Below, in pieces: positions 1-17,088 of a stretch of DNA of 20,307 nt. The notes under the pieces are model-generated. The model worked only from the letters and a program-made list of their open reading frames with translations, was not told the DNA's origin and searched no databases. Made by a program: the position numbers and the translations under genes. The stretch is from a virus: the IMG/VR virus record IMGVR_UViG_3300009488_000100, positions 1 to 20,307 of that record; one strand, written 5' to 3'. The stretch's first letter is position 1; the number at the start of each line of letters is the position of its first letter.

Positions 1-565
1 CGCGAGTCATGTCGATACCGGATGGATCGTGATCCCCGAAGTGCAGGATCACTGTCGTCTGTTTCCGGTTCATCTCGTAGTGCCTGGCGCGGACGTAAGC
101 TCGCCACTGCTCAGACTGAGAGACGTAGCCGCGGCATGCAAAGTAGGGCACATCCATCTCGTCGCAGACGCCTGCGATAACGCCGGCCAGGGCTTCCTTC
201 TCAATCCACACCTCGACTCGCTCAGGCTGGTTCGACCACATATCAATCTCGTATGTGTCGAGCGCATCCTGGATTGCCTGGCGCGGACCTGTGAAGTGGT
301 AGTTCGACTTGAGGTTCCTGGTGCGATCTTCGATCGACTGCCAGTCCACCATGCCGGCGAGCCTGGCATCGTTGATGATTGAGCCCAGGCGCTTGTAGGA
401 CTGCTGCGTGTTCGGAAGCATGCCCCTGGCGACAAACTGATAGTAGAGCTGCCGCAATGTCAGGACGAATCCCTGGGCCTTGTACTCATCGATGATGGTG
501 TTGGCCTCATAGATGATGTCCAGCGATGCGTCTTTGAAGTTCTTCTCGATGAATGCCTGTTTCAT
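1..565 (-). CDS. Stand-alone Spo11/topoisomerase VI A-like TOPRIM protein, C-terminus cut by window edge
   Basis: The frame is open from ATG 565 to the window edge (188 residues seen). Residues 36-42 read TLRQLYY, the arrangement of the winged-helix motif that carries the catalytic tyrosine in Spo11/Topo VI A (candidates Y41, Y42). A basic stretch follows to about residue 84. Residues 117-188 look like a TOPRIM fold: a strand ending WIEKEAL (acidic residue E122) and later HFGDHDPSGID, giving the DxD pair D178/D180 followed by P-S-G-I as in Spo11. Known family members make or mimic type IIB double-strand cleavage. Here a DNA-cleaving or DNA-binding role in replication or recombination is inferred. 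No B (ATPase) subunit is in the window. The start has GGAGGT six bases upstream, and its ATGA overlaps the stop of the preceding gene, so it is translationally coupled and the last visible gene of unit A. Confidence 0.75.
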   Translation of the reverse strand, partial: MKQAFIEKNFKDASLDIIYEANTIIDEYKAQGFVLTLRQLYYQFVARGMLPNTQQSYKRLGSIINDARLAGMVDWQSIEDRTRNLKSNYHFTGPRQAIQDALDTYEIDMWSNQPERVEVWIEKEALAGVIAGVCDEMDVPYFACRGYVSQSEQWRAYVRARHYEMNRKQTTVILHFGDHDPSGIDMTR

Positions 566-969
566 GATGCGACCTCCTCAACTCCGTACACCTTCCAGGT
601 GTCCAGGCAATCTGCTTGTGGTTTATGAGCGAAGTATTTGAATGCCTTGGATACTGCGACATATCGATCGGTGGCATAGAACGTCTCGCGATGCACCGTC
701 ATGTCTTCCAGTCTAATCAGGCTGACTCGATACTTAAATTCATGGAGCGCAGATTGGACTGGGCGATTGAGATCGAGTTGCTGTTCAGTGTTATCTTCCA
801 GGCTGAACTGATGGGTCAGGTCTTCGCGACGAATTATTTCCAGCATCTTGCGACCGATGGTTTCCAGCTTGCGCTCGAAATAGCAATCGCTGATAGGCCA
901 GGTGTGCGTCTTGCCATCAGCGGCACGGAGAGTGACTTGGTACTCTTGTTTGACTACAGCTCTGGCCAT
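562..969 (-). CDS. Hypothetical protein, 135 aa
   Basis: This is the fourth gene of the leftward unit A. It starts at ATG 969 inside a TAATG overlap with the previous gene, and its stop overlaps the start of the Spo11-like gene (ATGA). The protein is soluble and of mixed charge. It has a beta-rich N-terminus (QEYQVTLRAADGKTHTWPIS), a charged helical middle (about residues 30-70), and a C-terminal half with aromatic residues (about 78-135). No signal peptide, membrane segment or Cys motif is seen. I do not recognise the family. Its place directly before the Spo11-like gene suggests a partner or accessory in DNA metabolism, which is inference only. Confidence 0.8.
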   Translation of the reverse strand: MARAVVKQEYQVTLRAADGKTHTWPISDCYFERKLETIGRKMLEIIRREDLTHQFSLEDNTEQQLDLNRPVQSALHEFKYRVSLIRLEDMTVHRETFYATDRYVAVSKAFKYFAHKPQADCLDTWKVYGVEEVAS

Positions 970-1718: not shown

Positions 1719-1764
1719 ACTGTACCCGAATGACCATTATATCAAATTGACAGCATGACTGCAT
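1719..1764 (-). promoter_or_regulatory. Promoter/operator A for leftward unit A
   Basis: Read on the minus strand: -35-like ATGCAG (1764-1759), a 17-nt spacer containing TGCTGTCA (1755-1748), a perfect -10 TATAAT (1741-1736), then 8 nt and GGGTACAGT (1727-1719) close to the expected transcript start. The spacer motif and GGGTACAGT recur at the same positions in promoters B and C. Promoter activity is inferred from hexamers, spacing and location. Confidence 0.65.
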
Positions 1765-1863
1765 CTCGACAGGATCACAAAACGACAAAATGCAGGCTGG
1801 AGCCCTTTAGTGGCGTAGCCGATTTGCCCAGAAATTTTTTTTTCGAGATGATTTTGGTCGCGC

Positions 1864-1887
1864 AAAAAAAAGGGCCCGAAGGCCCTT
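1864..1887 (-). terminator. Rho-independent terminator of unit B
   Basis: On the minus strand the 7-bp stem AAGGGCC/GGCCCTT closes a TTCG loop and is followed by eight T residues. It lies 23 bases past the stop of the DUF932-like gene and upstream of promoter A. About 200 bases (1705-1910) hold only this hairpin, promoter A and a nine-T run (1835-1843) that I cannot assign. Confidence 0.9.
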
Positions 1888-1910
1888 AATAAGTCCGGGT
1901 ACGGACGGAG

Positions 1911-3005
1911 TTATGCTGCTTCTGCGATCTGTCTCCAGTCGTTCTTTGGCAGCTCAATGATGTCTCCACCAAGGCGCTCGAACTCTGAGGCCCGGTCGTA
2001 ATCGTCCAGGTCTTCAGCAGAGCGTGTGACTGCGGCATGCAGTCCGTAACGACTCAGGTCGCCACCTGTGATCAGGTGCTTCAACACTGAGTCGCGTTCG
2101 CCTTCGGTCCACGAGAACTTCTTGCGGACTCGCTCGATGACTTCCACTGGGGAGTCTTCGATCTTGTCCTGCGTGGACTCCTCCAGGCGCTTGGCCAGAG
2201 CCTCGAACCGAGCCTGGTTGAACGCACCCTTGGTGATGTCCCTGGCTTGACGCCACAGAGCCTCATCGGAGACCTGCTTCGTCTTGTCAGTCAGCAAGGC
2301 ATACACCTCGTCTGAGACATCAGCTCGTGAGCCGGCGTGGTACTTCTTCATAGCCGCGCCGAAGGTTGCAAGGTTTGTGCAAGCCTTGGTCCAGATCGAT
2401 GTCTCGATCAGCAACGTGCCGGCACCGATCTCGGAGTTCGAGATGGTGATAGCCGGAGAGATCGTGTCAAAGATCGTGTGACCACCGTCGCCCATGAACT
2501 TGCCAGTCGGAATGTCTTTCATGATGGCTTCATCGACTGCCTTCAGATAGAACTTGCGTTCCGTAATGTCGGCAGAGATGACCATCACTCCAAGCTCATT
2601 CAGAACTGGAAGCACGGCTTCGGCAAGATCCTCATTCTCCAACGGGCGAAACCGATCAGAGAGTAAGGCCCGCATCTTCGCGTCCAGGACACGAATCATC
2701 CGTGCCTCGTTGGCATGATCCTGGAACCAGCGATTGATACTATCCACCAGAATCTGCGGCGCATCAGTGAGCATGCGGTCGTAGTATTTCTTCGGGATCT
2801 CCAAGTAGCCGGCCATTTGACCGTGCGCGTAAGGTGCGATCGGGAAGGCTTCCTGCCCTTGCAGATTCATCACAACCTGGGGAAGCGCATCGACGGTCTC
2901 AACGGATGCCGACAGCTTCTGTACTGGTGCGATGAAGTCCTGCTTGGACTCAGCCCGGCGCTCGATCTCCTGCGCCAGTTCAGTCAGTGACTTTCCTCTT
3001 TTCAT
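1911..3005 (-). CDS. DUF932-like phage/plasmid protein, 364 aa
   Basis: The call rests on the pattern of the DUF932 (TIGR03299-like) family found in phages and plasmids: RMIRVLDAKMRALLSDRFRPLEN (about residues 102-124, quoted in part as RALLSDRFRPL), SADITERKFYLK (144-155), and SNSEIGAGTLLIE...CTNLATFG (189-216). Length fits the family. Members are common accessory proteins of mobile elements, and their biochemical role is not established to my knowledge. AGGAGG (3019-3014) lies eight bases before ATG 3005, a very strong site suggesting high expression. It is the second gene of unit B, 80 bases after the 153-aa gene, and ends just before the terminator. The C-terminal ~100 residues are charged and helical and may be a separate domain. 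Confidence 0.8.
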   Translation of the reverse strand: MKRGKSLTELAQEIERRAESKQDFIAPVQKLSASVETVDALPQVVMNLQGQEAFPIAPYAHGQMAGYLEIPKKYYDRMLTDAPQILVDSINRWFQDHANEARMIRVLDAKMRALLSDRFRPLENEDLAEAVLPVLNELGVMVISADITERKFYLKAVDEAIMKDIPTGKFMGDGGHTIFDTISPAITISNSEIGAGTLLIETSIWTKACTNLATFGAAMKKYHAGSRADVSDEVYALLTDKTKQVSDEALWRQARDITKGAFNQARFEALAKRLEESTQDKIEDSPVEVIERVRKKFSWTEGERDSVLKHLITGGDLSRYGLHAAVTRSAEDLDDYDRASEFERLGGDIIELPKNDWRQIAEAA

Positions 3006-3085
3006 GATTCAATCCTCCTATATGGATTGTTGTGGTGCGGACTTGCACCCAGAGGGGCACTCGTGAGAATTCCCTACTGGCTGCA

Positions 3086-3547
3086 TTACGGGATGTACCA
3101 AACTGGACCTCCATCTCGGTCATCGTATCCATGCGTGATGGTTCGCTCGATGCCATGATCGCCTGGGACATAGTAGTAAGGATCGATGTGATCAGCTATT
3201 TTGCTGAGCGCATCTTCAGCATCCTTCCTGGTGTAGCCGGTTGGGAAGACCACGACCGCGCCGTATCGCAAAGGCTCCTGGTTCAGGTAAGCCCTGACAT
3301 GCTCAATGACGACAAAGATGTCGTCTGAGTAGAACGTGTCGGTCATTGGATCAGTGGTGTCGATGCACCAGACTTTTTTGACTTGGCCATGGTTATCTTT
3401 TTGGCCGAAGTCTCCGTAGCGGATTGCGGCAGTGTATCTGCGCTGGCCATGATCCCGGTGGAGGTGGTGGACGTTGCCATTATCACGCACACTTTCGCAG
3501 GCCATCTGGACATCATCCTGGGTGATGCGATCTCTTTCGTAACTCAT
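3086..3547 (-). CDS. Hypothetical protein, 153 aa, first gene of unit B
   Basis: The frame stays open upstream to 3700, but I start at ATG 3547. It has GGAG nearby and lies 18 bases inside the transcript predicted from promoter B, whereas the longer form would read through promoter B and the terminator at 3626-3648. The protein is His- and Asp-rich (VHHLHRDHGQRRY, HIDPYYYVPGDHG) and mostly beta/alpha mixed, with a YTRKDAEDALSKIADHID helix near residue 115. There is no signal peptide. I do not recognise the family. Confidence 0.8.
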   Translation of the reverse strand: MSYERDRITQDDVQMACESVRDNGNVHHLHRDHGQRRYTAAIRYGDFGQKDNHGQVKKVWCIDTTDPMTDTFYSDDIFVVIEHVRAYLNQEPLRYGAVVVFPTGYTRKDAEDALSKIADHIDPYYYVPGDHGIERTITHGYDDRDGGPVWYIP

Positions 3548-3564
3548 GCTTGACTCCGTTATTG

Positions 3565-3609
3565 ACTGTACCCAGGATCGATTAGGCCACAGTGACCGCA
3601 GGATTGCAA
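3565..3609 (-). promoter_or_regulatory. Promoter/operator B for leftward unit B
   Basis: Minus strand: TTGCAA (3609-3604), a 17-nt spacer with TGCGGTCA (3600-3593), a -10-like CCTAAT (3586-3581), 7 nt, then GGGTACAGT (3573-3565). It has the same layout as promoters A and C, with one base fewer before GGGTACAGT. It sits between the terminator of unit C and the first gene of unit B. Confidence 0.65.
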
Positions 3610-3625
3610 GGATCTGTTTAACAAT

Positions 3626-3648
3626 AAAAAAAGGGGCCCGAAGGCCCC
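3626..3648 (-). terminator. Rho-independent terminator of unit C
   Basis: On the minus strand GGGGCC-TTCG-GGCCCC is followed by seven T residues. It lies 20 bases past the 46-aa gene and directly upstream of promoter B. Loop and stem are almost the same as in the terminator at 1864-1887. Confidence 0.9.
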
Positions 3649-3668
3649 AACGGAGGAGATTGGTGCGC

Positions 3669-3809
3669 TTAGTAGCGCAAAAGTCGAACTGGTTCGCCAT
3701 CCTTGTAGATGGTCACGCTCCGATGCGCTTGAAGCATCCAGGCGCGAGCAGCGACTATGGCCAACCACAGGGTCGCGTATTGCGTGATCTCAATATCGAT
3801 CGTAAACAT
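3669..3809 (-). CDS. Small membrane-associated hypothetical protein, 46 aa
   Basis: Three in-frame ATGs occur (3818, 3815, 3809). I chose 3809 because GAGG then lies nine bases upstream. The first half is hydrophobic (about residues 10-28, YATLWLAIVAARAWML) and would form one amphipathic or membrane helix. The second half is polar and basic (TIYKDGEPVRLLRY). It overlaps the upstream gene by 20 bases and is followed by the unit C terminator. Function is unknown. Confidence 0.65.
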   Translation of the reverse strand: MFTIDIEITQYATLWLAIVAARAWMLQAHRSVTIYKDGEPVRLLRY

Positions 3810-3960
3810 CGTCATCATCCTCTGTATCCCTTACCACGCCAAGGTTCTGGCGGATGTCAGCGATGGTGGACTTGATGCCGCCACGCCTGGCAATAACATA
3901 CGCGCATGCGGCGAGGTCGGCTGCGACGTAGATCACAGCGATGTAGCAGAGAATTTCCAT
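3790..3960 (-). CDS. Small membrane protein, 56 aa, first gene of unit C
   Basis: ATG 3960 has AGGAG five bases upstream and is about 29 nt inside the transcript predicted from promoter C. Residues 2-23 (EILCYIAVIYVAADLAACAYVI) form a hydrophobic segment with two Cys. A basic patch (ARRGGIK) follows and would sit in the cytoplasm. The tail is acidic (DTEDDDDVYDRY). The topology suggests a single-pass inner-membrane peptide of the early region. Function is unknown. Confidence 0.75.
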   Translation of the reverse strand: MEILCYIAVIYVAADLAACAYVIARRGGIKSTIADIRQNLGVVRDTEDDDDVYDRY

Positions 3961-3972
3961 GACTTGCTCCTA

Positions 3973-4001
3973 TTGACTAACTGTACCCAGCGTCCGACAA
4001 T
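3973..4001 (+). promoter_or_regulatory. Possible rightward promoter overlapping promoter C
   Basis: TTGACT (3973-3978), a 17-nt spacer and GACAAT (3996-4001) match sigma-70 hexamers at five and four positions. It would drive the rightward genes and would clash physically with promoter C. The match is modest and nothing independent supports it. Confidence 0.25.
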
Positions 4002-4025
4002 ACACACCTGACCGCATGATTGCAA
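3980..4025 (-). promoter_or_regulatory. Promoter/operator C for leftward unit C
   Basis: Minus strand: TTGCAA (4025-4020), a 17-nt spacer with TGCGGTCA (4016-4009), -10-like TATTGT (4002-3997), 8 nt, then GGGTACAGT (3988-3980). Over the first 17 bases it matches promoter B at 16 positions and promoter A at 14. It lies at the divergence point between leftward and rightward genes. Confidence 0.65.
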
Positions 4026-4410: not shown

Positions 4411-5029
4411 AAAGCAACTGGCCTTCGCGATAAACGTAGTCCAGCTCGCGATGAAGCCACATCCAGCGATGCTCGCTGCCGGCTATTCCAAAAACACGGC
4501 CCACATAAAGTCCCACAAGTTGGCAGCTCAGTTGCGTCCGTTCTTCGCGTTTCTCCAGGAAAGGAAGAACGAGGTGGCCGCGGCTCACTACGATGCGACG
4601 ACGACCAGGATCCTGCACGAGATGTCAGCGATCGGTCTTCAGAACATCAAGGATTACATCAGGACCGTGAAGGTCAATGGTGTAATTCGTCTGATCGGAA
4701 AGCCGGTGATTGAGCTGACGGATCCGCAAGCCCTGGCTGTCGAATCCTGGGAGGCTGTGCCGATCAAGACAGACGATGGTGAGGAGCTGGATTACAAGTA
4801 CGTGCTGCACGATAAAGCCAATGCTTTGGTGAACCTGGGCAAGCACCTGGGGATGTTCTCCGAGAAGCTAATGCTGGATCTGAATATGCGGCAGAGCCAG
4901 GCCAGGTCCCTGGACTTCAGCGCCCTGCCGCAAGACGAATTGGAGCTTGTCATCAAGACTCTGGAAGGCATACAACAGAAAGCTGCAAAGGCCAGAGCAA
5001 TCGAGGGGGAGTCTCAGCGAATCGATTGA
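4340..5029 (+). CDS. terS: Terminase small subunit
   Basis: The protein recognises phage DNA and hands it to the large terminase for packaging. The N-terminal part shows the Terminase_2-like helix-turn-helix pattern: GWPRTKKQLAFAINVV (19-34), then the hallmark HPAMLAAGYSKNTAHIKSHKL (about 41-61, AGYS-x-NTA core) and an FFAFLQERKNEV helix. The C-terminal part has the typical KANALVNLGKHLGMFSEK segment and a helical tail for oligomerisation. A length of 229 aa is usual to slightly long. GGGAG lies ten bases before ATG 4340, and GTG 4350 is another possible start. The large subunit is 9.5 kb downstream instead of adjacent. Confidence 0.8.
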   Translation: MCVSVPAEAIEVEPHNTRGWPRTKKQLAFAINVVQLAMKPHPAMLAAGYSKNTAHIKSHKLAAQLRPFFAFLQERKNEVAAAHYDATTTRILHEMSAIGLQNIKDYIRTVKVNGVIRLIGKPVIELTDPQALAVESWEAVPIKTDDGEELDYKYVLHDKANALVNLGKHLGMFSEKLMLDLNMRQSQARSLDFSALPQDELELVIKTLEGIQQKAAKARAIEGESQRID

Positions 5030-5073
5030 GTTTCCTGCCTCATTCCCGTAGTCTTTGAAGCGAGGGTATGGTC

Positions 5074-5175
5074 ATGAAATTTGTCAGAAATGTTGTAATT
5101 GTTCTTCTGGTTCTCGCCTTGTTGTATGTCATGGGTGTAGCATTCCTCACTGGCATTCAAGGAGGGCATCCATAA
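5074..5175 (+). CDS. Single-pass membrane peptide, 33 aa
   Basis: ATG 5074 is preceded by GAGGG, and the stop overlaps the next start as TAATG. After MKFVRN there is one hydrophobic segment (VVIVLLVLALLYVMGVAFL) and a short polar tail (TGIQGGHP). It could be a small inner-membrane peptide working with the secreted protein encoded next, for example in lysis or exclusion; that is inference. The frame lies within another longer open frame that I consider spurious. Confidence 0.65.
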   Translation: MKFVRNVVIVLLVLALLYVMGVAFLTGIQGGHP

Positions 5176-5846
5176 TGAGAATTGCAGCACTCATCGGAAT
5201 CTTCTTAATGACAGGGACAGCACTCGCGACTGGCAGTGACGACGACGATCGTGATCTCGGCCAGGATCAAACCCAGGGTCAAGCCCAGGATCAATACCAG
5301 GACCAAACCCAGGGCCAGGAAACCATGGTCAATGTCGAGAACGCATCGGCTGGTGGCCAGGCAATCAACGAAGGCAATGATCAGAAGGTCGAGTTCAACT
5401 CGAACTACGAGTCCCAGGCTCCTGACATTCTCATGGTTCCGAACAACAACACTGAGAAATGTCTGCGGATCTTTGGCCTGAGTTTCAGCACCGAGGGCGG
5501 CGGAGGTGGCATCGGATTCCCATGGAGATCTGCTCCATGCGATTTCGAGCAAGCAGCCGACGATGCTTTTGCTGGTGGCGAACGAGACCTTGGCTGGTTC
5601 TGGAAGTGCCAGAGCAAGAATCTATACAAGCCGTTTCGAGCGAAAGGCGAGAGTAAAGAGTCAGCGATCGATGACTGCCAAAGCAGAATGATGGCAGGCG
5701 TCAGCCAGGCAAACGTAATCAGTAAGCTCCAGAGTGACCTGGCCGAGCTGAATCTTTTGCGCCAGAATGAATTAGAGCAGTACCGGCAGTCACGAGAACG
5801 ATGTCAGAATTTGACTGAGACGCTGGAGGAAAACTGCACTAAATAG
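5175..5846 (+). CDS. Secreted Gln-rich phage protein, 223 aa
   Basis: ATG 5175 (GGAGG nine bases upstream) gives a clean Sec signal peptide, MRIAALIGIFLMTGTALATG. A longer open frame upstream would hide it. The mature part has three regions. First is an Asp- then Gln-rich repeat (residues about 30-49, Q-[DG]-Q-x units). Second is a Gly-rich segment (STEGGGGGIGFPW) in a Cys-containing domain (APCDFEQAADDAFAGG, WFWKCQSK, DDCQSRM). Third is a C-terminal coiled coil of about 45 residues ending in CTK. Similar Q-rich exported proteins occur in other phages without a known role as far as I recall. An envelope or virion-surface function is inferred. Confidence 0.75.
   Translation: MRIAALIGIFLMTGTALATGSDDDDRDLGQDQTQGQAQDQYQDQTQGQETMVNVENASAGGQAINEGNDQKVEFNSNYESQAPDILMVPNNNTEKCLRIFGLSFSTEGGGGGIGFPWRSAPCDFEQAADDAFAGGERDLGWFWKCQSKNLYKPFRAKGESKESAIDDCQSRMMAGVSQANVISKLQSDLAELNLLRQNELEQYRQSRERCQNLTETLEENCTK
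5262..5321 (+). repeat. Five degenerate 12-bp tandem repeats
   Basis: Units of the type CAGGATCAAACC repeat five times in frame and encode Gln-Asp/Gly-Gln-x. Third-position and Asp/Gly differences show the units are diverged. They lie just after the signal peptide of the host gene. Confidence 0.8.
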
Positions 5847-9866: not shown

Positions 9867-10483
9867 TTGATTACGGAGACTGCAAAGCGCCCTACTGGAC
9901 CGGCAGAATTGTAGTGAAACGATGGGTAGCGATGCTGCACCAGGTCGTGATCGGGCTGCTGTTCCTGGCCCTTGCTGTCACGGCGCAAGCCGGCGAAGCG
10001 GAGCTTACCTGGACAGCGCCAACTCAAAACACTGATGGCACACCGCTGACTGACCTGGCTGGTTTCAAGATCTACCTGGGAACGACGCAAGGTGGACCGT
10101 ATCCAGTGTCGGTTGATATTCCCGATCCATTGGCAACGACATTCACCGTGCCGAACCTGACTGAAGGGACGACATATTATTTCGTCTCGACAGCCTACAA
10201 CAGTGCGGCCACCGTCCAGGAAAGTGACTTCTCGAACGAAGCCATGAAGCTCATTCCGTTTGCAGTACCGAATCCACCATCGATGTTGACAGTCGTCGAG
10301 ATGGTTGCATTCTATGTCGTGGCGCAGGAGAACAAGTATGTCCTGGTAGCTGTTGGCGAAGTACCGAATGGAACTCCGTGCGATCCAGATGAGACAGTGA
10401 ATGGACATTATGTGGTGCCCAGGACTTCAGTGAACTGGTATGGCAGTGTGCAACCAGAAGCAGTCGTAGCGAAGTGTGCCTGA
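9863..10483 (+). CDS. Exported fibronectin type III-domain protein, 206 aa
   Basis: I chose ATG 9863: it has GAGGAG six bases upstream and overlaps the previous stop; ATG 9857 lies against the site. After a polar 17-residue lead, VAMLHQVVIGLLFLALAVTA is a signal peptide or anchor, probably cleaved after AQAG. Residues ~48-135 form an FnIII domain (AELTWTAPTQNTDGTPL, GFKIYLGTTQGGPY, TTYYFVSTAYNSA). A second beta-rich domain follows with two Cys (GTPCDPDE, VVAKC). FnIII domains in phages usually sit on surfaces and help attach to host carbohydrates. The odd N-terminus could mean a start at GTG 9914. Confidence 0.75.
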   Translation: MIDYGDCKAPYWTGRIVVKRWVAMLHQVVIGLLFLALAVTAQAGEAELTWTAPTQNTDGTPLTDLAGFKIYLGTTQGGPYPVSVDIPDPLATTFTVPNLTEGTTYYFVSTAYNSAATVQESDFSNEAMKLIPFAVPNPPSMLTVVEMVAFYVVAQENKYVLVAVGEVPNGTPCDPDETVNGHYVVPRTSVNWYGSVQPEAVVAKCA

Positions 10484-16436: not shown

Positions 16437-16461
16437 CACCGAGCGAATGACCGGATAGAAT
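16433..16461 (+). promoter_or_regulatory. Late promoter candidate before 16501 gene
   Basis: GTGACA (16433-16438), a 17-nt spacer and TAGAAT (16456-16461) each match the sigma-70 hexamers at five of six positions. The TAGAATCGC start of the leader is shared with 13883. The remaining ~40 bases hold TTCGCCGCC and an imperfect ribosome site (AGAGGG). Confidence 0.5.
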
Positions 16462-16500
16462 CGCTGCATCTTCGCCGCCAACGAAGCAGAGGGTACAGCT

Positions 16501-17088
16501 ATGGTTGGTGGATTAAGTGGCGGAGGTCTCCAAGGTCTCACAACTTCAGCGGTTCAGGCCGCAATCGATGAAGCAATCGCGGATGCGTTTGCTGAGATGG
16601 CTAAGTTCCAGTTCGGCCCATTGATGCTGGAGAACCCAGTCAATTCTGACTGGTTTGTTAATGCTTTAGCGCCTGCCGCTGTCGATAGCATTGACCCTGC
16701 TCTGACAGTAAGGCTGTTTGATGCCACGATTCAGGAGGGTGTCGGATGGCAGCTTGTAATACCAGACCAGGCAACCAGCATGACCATTTCCTTCATATCC
16801 AGGGCTGAAATAGCGCCACCTGGAACACGGCAGGTTGGCTTGCGACTGGTTCAGAGGGGCGTTACTGACAATACAGGTATCGGTGCGTGGGATCCTTTGC
16901 CGGCATTGACCGACATAGACATTCCGAACAACGTACTGTTTCAGTACGATTCGCAAACCTTCACCATGGCGACAGTGAACGCCACCCCAGGAGAACTGAC
17001 GCAGTTTGAATTGGTGAGGATACCGCCAGTCGGCACGAACCTTCCCGGCGATTGGGCATTAGCGCATCTCTCAGTTGCGTTCAGCTAA
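16501..17088 (+). CDS. Beta-rich putative virion protein, 195 aa
   Basis: The first 35 residues are Gly-rich then helical (LTTSAVQAAIDEAIADAFAEM), a common trimerisation-style lead of phage fibre proteins. The rest is a predicted beta sandwich (GWQLVIPDQATSMTISFISR, RQVGLRLVQRG, LFQYDSQTFTM, WALAHLSVAFS). The gene is separate from the small-gene block, has its own promoter candidate, and is followed immediately by a LamG protein. A tail-fibre or capsid-decoration role is inferred; no specific family is recognised. Confidence 0.65.
   Translation: MVGGLSGGGLQGLTTSAVQAAIDEAIADAFAEMAKFQFGPLMLENPVNSDWFVNALAPAAVDSIDPALTVRLFDATIQEGVGWQLVIPDQATSMTISFISRAEIAPPGTRQVGLRLVQRGVTDNTGIGAWDPLPALTDIDIPNNVLFQYDSQTFTMATVNATPGELTQFELVRIPPVGTNLPGDWALAHLSVAFS

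Follow-up and report, generated by a model that had tools for sequence, protein, structure and literature searches.

Among the closest described counterparts of the locus reported here is C4, an antisense RNA encoded by phages P1 and P7 (Rfam C4); in P1, one loop of this RNA binds an upstream sequence and another occludes the ribosome-binding site (PMC5320573). The CI RNA of phage P4 recognises two complementary leader sequences, seqA and seqC, and terminates transcription in its own operon (PMC4825925). Both of these phage antisense RNAs act on one gene or operon. In bacteria, trans-acting small RNAs derived from 3'-UTRs are often Hfq-dependent. We describe a phage in which the leaders of several operons share a 9-nt tag, GGGTACAGT, the extended reverse complement of which forms the loop of a conserved hairpin behind the RusA gene. 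From the sequence we consider it likely that a 3'-UTR small RNA represses the phage's own mRNAs, that of its own operon included, by pairing with their tag and ribosome-binding site.

The stretch of DNA analysed, referred to as the window, is a 20.3-kb (20,307-nt) phage fragment encoding TerL, the portal protein and TerS. Record G001 (46.8 kb) extends the window from position 10271 onward with 99.9% identity, and record G019 (32.2 kb) is 99.95% identical to G001 across an overlap of 20.3 kb. A topoisomerase-like gene is split between the far end of G019 (32201) and window base 1, so that window, G001 and G019 together cover one phage of about 69 kb; the three records represent one phage species sampled in different metagenomes.

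1-568, minus strand: 5' two thirds of the topoisomerase-like gene, its 3' end lying on G019, which comes to within a few bases of the window's left end

As close relatives we found G004/G005, G006, G007, G009, G015, G016, G020, G021 and L122/L210. GenBank holds no phage matching the window's DNA, and portal relatives are 26-44% identical, the nearest being the Roseobacter phages CRP-901/902. Beyond the window, G001 30770-42505 encodes a polyvalent protein of 3,911 aa that combines an inorganic pyrophosphatase domain (PF18823) with LPD38 (PF18857). An N4-type virion RNA polymerase using special promoters was considered for this protein and rejected, as it shows these two domains without a polymerase match.

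The preliminary description of this DNA had proposed three matching promoter cassettes on the minus strand at 1764-1719, 3609-3565 and 4025-3980 (P3, P2 and P1), and our analysis confirms all three. In the order P3/P2/P1, -35-like hexamers (ATGCAG/TTGCAA/TTGCAA) are followed three bases on by TGCTGTCA/TGCGGTCA/TGCGGTCA, 17-nt spacers lead to the -10s TATAAT/CCTAAT/TATTGT, and GGGTACAGT stands 8/7/8 nt further. A start codon is found 14-20 nt past each tag with a Shine-Dalgarno sequence in between.

3980-4025, minus strand: promoter P1, with -35 TTGCAA at 4025-4020, TGCGGTCA at 4016-4009, -10 TATTGT at 4002-3997 and tag GGGTACAGT at 3988-3980
3790-3970, minus strand: P1 Shine-Dalgarno GGAG (3970-3967) and first gene (56 aa, start 3960), from the ORF list
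3626-3648, minus strand: intrinsic terminator closing the P1 unit just upstream of P2, GGGGCC-TTCG-GGCCCC followed by a T-run
3565-3609, minus strand: promoter P2, with -35 TTGCAA at 3609-3604, TGCGGTCA at 3600-3593, -10 CCTAAT at 3586-3581 and tag GGGTACAGT at 3573-3565
3086-3547, minus strand: gene 1 of the P2 unit, 153 aa, without Pfam or PHROGs match
1911-3005, minus strand: gene 2 of the P2 unit, 364 aa, phrog_1362 of unknown function
1864-1888, minus strand: intrinsic terminator closing the P2 unit just upstream of P3, AAGGGCC-TTCG-GGCCCTT followed by a T-run
1719-1764, minus strand: promoter P3, with -35 ATGCAG at 1764-1759, TGCTGTCA at 1755-1748, -10 TATAAT at 1741-1736 and tag GGGTACAGT at 1727-1719

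The P2 tag is shortly followed by its Shine-Dalgarno sequence (GGAG, 3557-3554), the P3 tag by GGAG at 1714-1711 and the start codon at 1704. These are the only three exact copies of GGGTACAGT in the window, for which 300 dinucleotide-preserving shuffles give an expectation of 0.043 copies per shuffled window and a maximum of 1; the combined pattern TGCKGTCA-N19/20-GGGTACAGT occurs in 0/300 shuffles. Absence of the motif from close relatives keeping the same genes, which the earlier proposal had named as the observation that would count against it, is not what we find: the cassettes are retained in G004, G006, G007, G009 and G015, the same five in which the P1 site is orthologous. Orthologues of the first P1 gene are 55-79% identical, and P3 has orthologous sites in G004, G009 and G015 and the variant GGGTGCAGC in G007. 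Behind P2 of G007, a gene with a PAPS-reductase domain (34612-35406) replaces the window gene 3086-3547, so that the first gene of the P2 unit is swapped between relatives with promoter and leader staying constant.

The idea of a small regulon of three leftward units proved too narrow, the tag being present in at least four further units and in both directions, i.e. in the leaders of RecT, of the DnaB-loader/RusA unit, of a 160-aa gene and of the rightward unit after TerS. Orthologous leaders of all seven units (P1, P2, P3, RecT, DnaB-loader, 160-aa gene and rightward unit) are tagged across related phages. The tagged promoters of RecT, of the DnaB-loader gene, which is divergent from RecT, and of the 160-aa gene all lie outside the window.

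5026-5072, plus strand: rightward promoter after TerS, with TTGAGT at 5026-5031, 17 nt, TAGTCT at 5049-5054, tag variant GGGTATGGT at 5064-5072 and start at 5074
16491-16499, plus strand: GGGTACAGC immediately upstream of the start codon at 16501, conserved in G009 and L021

Relatives carry GGGTATAGT, GGGTACGGT or GGGTACAGT at the rightward unit. Tag bases 1-7 at these sites vary only by A5 to G, C6 to T and A7 to G, exactly the changes that stay paired via G-U with a strand reading ACUGUACCC, and the tag either precedes the Shine-Dalgarno sequence by a few nucleotides or overlaps it. On our best explanation, many mRNAs of this phage would carry GGGTACAGT as a common tag, placed at their 5' ends or close by. 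The GGGTACAGC site is possibly a tag variant and possibly only a Shine-Dalgarno-like coincidence; the same region of the window (16450-16500) shows GGATAGAAT and a small stem-loop, CTTCG..CGAAG, conserved together with GGGTACAGC in G009 and L021. No convincing equivalent of the tag was found in the distant relatives G028, G029 and G031. A pattern match in L211 was discarded as coincidence, L211 being an unrelated phage of high GC content where TACAGT makes a plausible -10, and when tag and spacer motif were scanned for together, mostly chance matches resulted.

TGCKGTCA in the spacer is best read as the terminal part of a 17-bp element, TTGCAATCNTGYGGTCA, conserved in the P1, P2 and RecT promoters and weaker at P3 (the 1764 site).

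Window 4025-4009 and 3609-3593, G019 26990 and the 46031 region of G001, all minus strand: sites of TTGCAATCNTGYGGTCA

At the promoter of the 160-aa gene, TTGCAATCNTGYGGTCA stands about 9-10 bp further downstream relative to -35 and -10 than in the window cassettes, a shift which is unexpected for a core promoter element and suggests a DNA-binding regulator. Several promoters carry the same site at positions that do not depend on their core elements, as in an operator set. TTGCAATCNTGYGGTCA is a signal separate from the leader tag, probably acting at the DNA level, and it may be a DNA operator. Our search for a binding protein among the window's small early proteins gave no Pfam or PHROGs match. 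In G029 (5250-5334 and 58602-59700) and G028 (22448-22519), repeated GTTGCA/TGCAAC boxes precede RecT and neighbouring genes; these are possibly operators of a different regulator.

One more exact copy of the tag sits between convergent operons, without a gene downstream, in the loop of a hairpin.

G019 30662-30750 (L201 10662-10750), plus strand: hairpin just after RusA, about 1.45-1.54 kb left of window base 1

The window's phage has this hairpin, because G019 overlaps G001 (99.95%) and G001 overlaps the window (99.9%). In G019 and seven relatives it is located 3' of the RusA stop codon and 5' of an intrinsic terminator, a position it has in all 8 phages in which it could be examined, with 60-105 nt from stop codon to loop. 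It is long and irregular, 89 nt in the window's phage and 72-89 nt across relatives. On the RusA strand, the apical part with the loop has the sequence GGCUCCGUGACUGUACCC, which is reverse-complementary to the tag together with the Shine-Dalgarno sequence (GGGUACAGU..GGAGYC), and the complement of GGCUCCGUGACUGUACCC, GGGUACAGUCACGGAGCC, looks like an mRNA leader including the Shine-Dalgarno sequence. Within the stem, 94.4% of cells are paired compared to 21-48% in slid controls, and 7 cells have changed on both sides, which is reached in 0/500 shuffles. The RusA strand folds with z-scores of -2.7 to -3.5, better than the opposite strand in 5 of the 6 phages tested, and the T-run of the terminator is on the RusA strand as well. 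Within the clade the 9-nt core of the loop does not vary, leaving no case for the strongest test, joint change of loop and leader.

A cmscan of the hairpin loci against Rfam (E up to 5) yielded only sub-threshold matches to other families, and the Rfam C4 covariance model gave no match even at E = 5. Our covariance model, run over 80 loci, confines the hairpin to this clade and finds it in 0/15 more distant records, several being fragments; neither tag nor hairpin occurs in the more distant relatives, and genome contigs of 84,980 species searched for hairpin plus loop contained none. We identified no dedicated small-RNA promoter. The tag copy in the hairpin was also considered as a promoter and rejected, since -10 and -35 are absent in G007.

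Complementarity between loop and leaders comprises two segments, ACUGUACCC with GGGUACAGU for the tag and GGCUCC with GGAGYC for the Shine-Dalgarno sequence. For the P2 leader, 18 pairs with the loop region are possible, flanking a 4-nt bulge; the P3, RecT, DnaB-loader and P1 leaders pair in both segments, the Shine-Dalgarno side pairing less well in P1 orthologues, and in the leader of the 160-aa gene pairing is confined to the tag region. On cofolding, several leaders gain only a moderate -7 to -13 kcal/mol. When 2,032 candidate start regions of the window's phage are ranked by duplex energy, leaving out the hairpin's own antisense copy, the DnaB-loader leader comes out on top; first rank is taken by RecT in G004 and G007 and by P2 in G009. 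A pyrimidine after GGAG, matching GGCUCC, is present in 22/25 tagged leaders compared to 51/164 genes overall (p = 7e-8, with orthologues not being independent). Aligning each leader with the loop complement of its own phage under symmetric scores, 49/63 transitions are G-U-tolerant and 14 intolerant (p = 6e-6, the transitions again not being fully independent). These p-values overstate the case, because orthologous leaders have a common ancestry and because G is favoured by Shine-Dalgarno constraints as well. The clearest single cases are the DnaB-loader leaders of G019, G020 and G021 (16 tolerant changes, 1 intolerant); in G020, 13 consecutive pairs survive five G-U-tolerant changes. Comparing G-U with A-C cells in consensus pairs was dropped as a strand test, being biased by the strand used and not informative.

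The preliminary description had left open whether the cassettes mark an operator set or a 5'-leader signal. For GGGTACAGT the leader reading is better supported, because its extended reverse complement is the loop of the conserved hairpin after RusA and because the tag is also found in the rightward and other leaders; TTGCAATCNTGYGGTCA may be an operator. We propose a scheme according to which the DnaB-loader/DnaB/RusA transcript would release, or end in, a small RNA, the hairpin plus terminator most likely being this 3'-UTR RNA and acting in trans on the tagged leaders. Bound to tag and Shine-Dalgarno sequence, it would block ribosome binding, which might result in a coordinated shut-off of early, recombination and replication units and in feedback on the DnaB-loader/DnaB/RusA mRNA itself. 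Transcription would start near GGG, the hairpin RNA would have to be made and stable, and pairing would repress rather than activate. Features seen in the sequence and pointing to this scheme are the shared tag, the conserved hairpin, the complementarity, the stem covariation, the direction of leader changes and the RusA-strand terminator; a conserved structured RNA together with a terminator is what a trans-acting phage small RNA should present. The evidence leans towards the wider interpretation that a phage-encoded 3'-UTR antisense RNA governs its own multi-operon regulon via one shared 5' tag, with tag and each Shine-Dalgarno sequence pairing with the same loop and with feedback on its own operon.

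Alternatively, GGGTACAGT might be a DNA operator at the transcription start, recognised by one phage DNA-binding protein, with the hairpin copy being another site or a decoy. This would fit the tag lying at roughly +1 to +9 in promoter-like sequences (P1-P3, RecT, DnaB-loader and rightward unit), the 17-bp element also common to several promoters and the small HTH protein encoded in G007, which could not be connected with the TTGCAATCNTGYGGTCA site. However, the tag of the 160-aa gene lies about 24 nt past the likely -10, showing its position relative to the promoter to vary, and an operator predicts neither a covarying hairpin after RusA nor the extended Shine-Dalgarno match nor the G-U-directional changes, making this explanation unlikely.

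We regard it as quite improbable that the opposite strand is the functional RNA, i.e. a hairpin showing GGGUACAGU..GGAGCC and serving as a leader mimic (sponge) for an RNA-binding translational repressor, for which T4 RegA and CsrB/CsrA control are the models. The opposite strand is leader-like (GGGTACAGTCACGGAGCC), it also folds and its absolute folding energy is more stable in most phages; yet composition-corrected folding prefers the RusA strand in the 5/6 phages mentioned, it is the RusA strand that the T-run terminator serves, for the opposite strand neither a promoter nor a terminator downstream is seen, and the G-U-directional leader changes are left unexplained.

A polymerase signal in the initial transcribed region, e.g. 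a sigma-dependent pause tied to Q-like antitermination via the spacer element, is very improbable, since despite the likeness of TACAGT to a -10 (4/6 matches to TATAAT, including A2 and T6) and the position of the spacer element between -35 and -10, where Q-binding elements lie, the constraint on the whole 9-mer goes beyond what a pause needs, the final T is lost in variants, promoter and first gene have no terminator between them, no Q homologue was found among the early proteins searched and the hairpin stays unexplained. TACAGT as a real -10 was rejected as well: start codons follow 1-5 nt after the tag in several units, so that transcripts could not begin downstream of it.

Our antisense RNA proposal resembles C4 in that a phage RNA would pair with an upstream specificity sequence and a ribosome-binding site, judged here by complementarity only, and in its possible release from a longer transcript, as in P1/P7. 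In contrast to C4, a repressor of ant built from three stem-loops in which the a' and b' loops are separate, we find one long irregular hairpin plus a terminator hairpin, both complementary parts in one loop region, a location after RusA and targets in several operons. With P4 CI the candidate shares being a phage-encoded antisense RNA with more than one complementary leader; it differs in its pairing covering Shine-Dalgarno sequences of separate operons, for which a translation block is expected, and we saw no terminator within the short tagged leaders. Like bacterial 3'-UTR small RNAs, it follows a coding gene and combines hairpin, U-rich linker and intrinsic terminator, whereas its targets would be the virus's own operons, each bearing the same leader tag and its own operon included. 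The cassettes are similar to sigma-70-type phage promoters with operators in their -35/-10-like hexamers and shared spacer element, but the start-proximal tag exceeds what promoter or operator needs and complements a conserved hairpin loop. A recurrent start-proximal motif whose reverse complement forms a conserved hairpin loop in the same genome offers a recipe by which others could search for such systems. As anatomy and number of separate operons differ from both C4 and P4 CI, the locus would be a variant of phage antisense control and a member of neither, and, if true, a single viral RNA reading a common tag on many of its own mRNAs would be the RNA counterpart of a repressor regulon.
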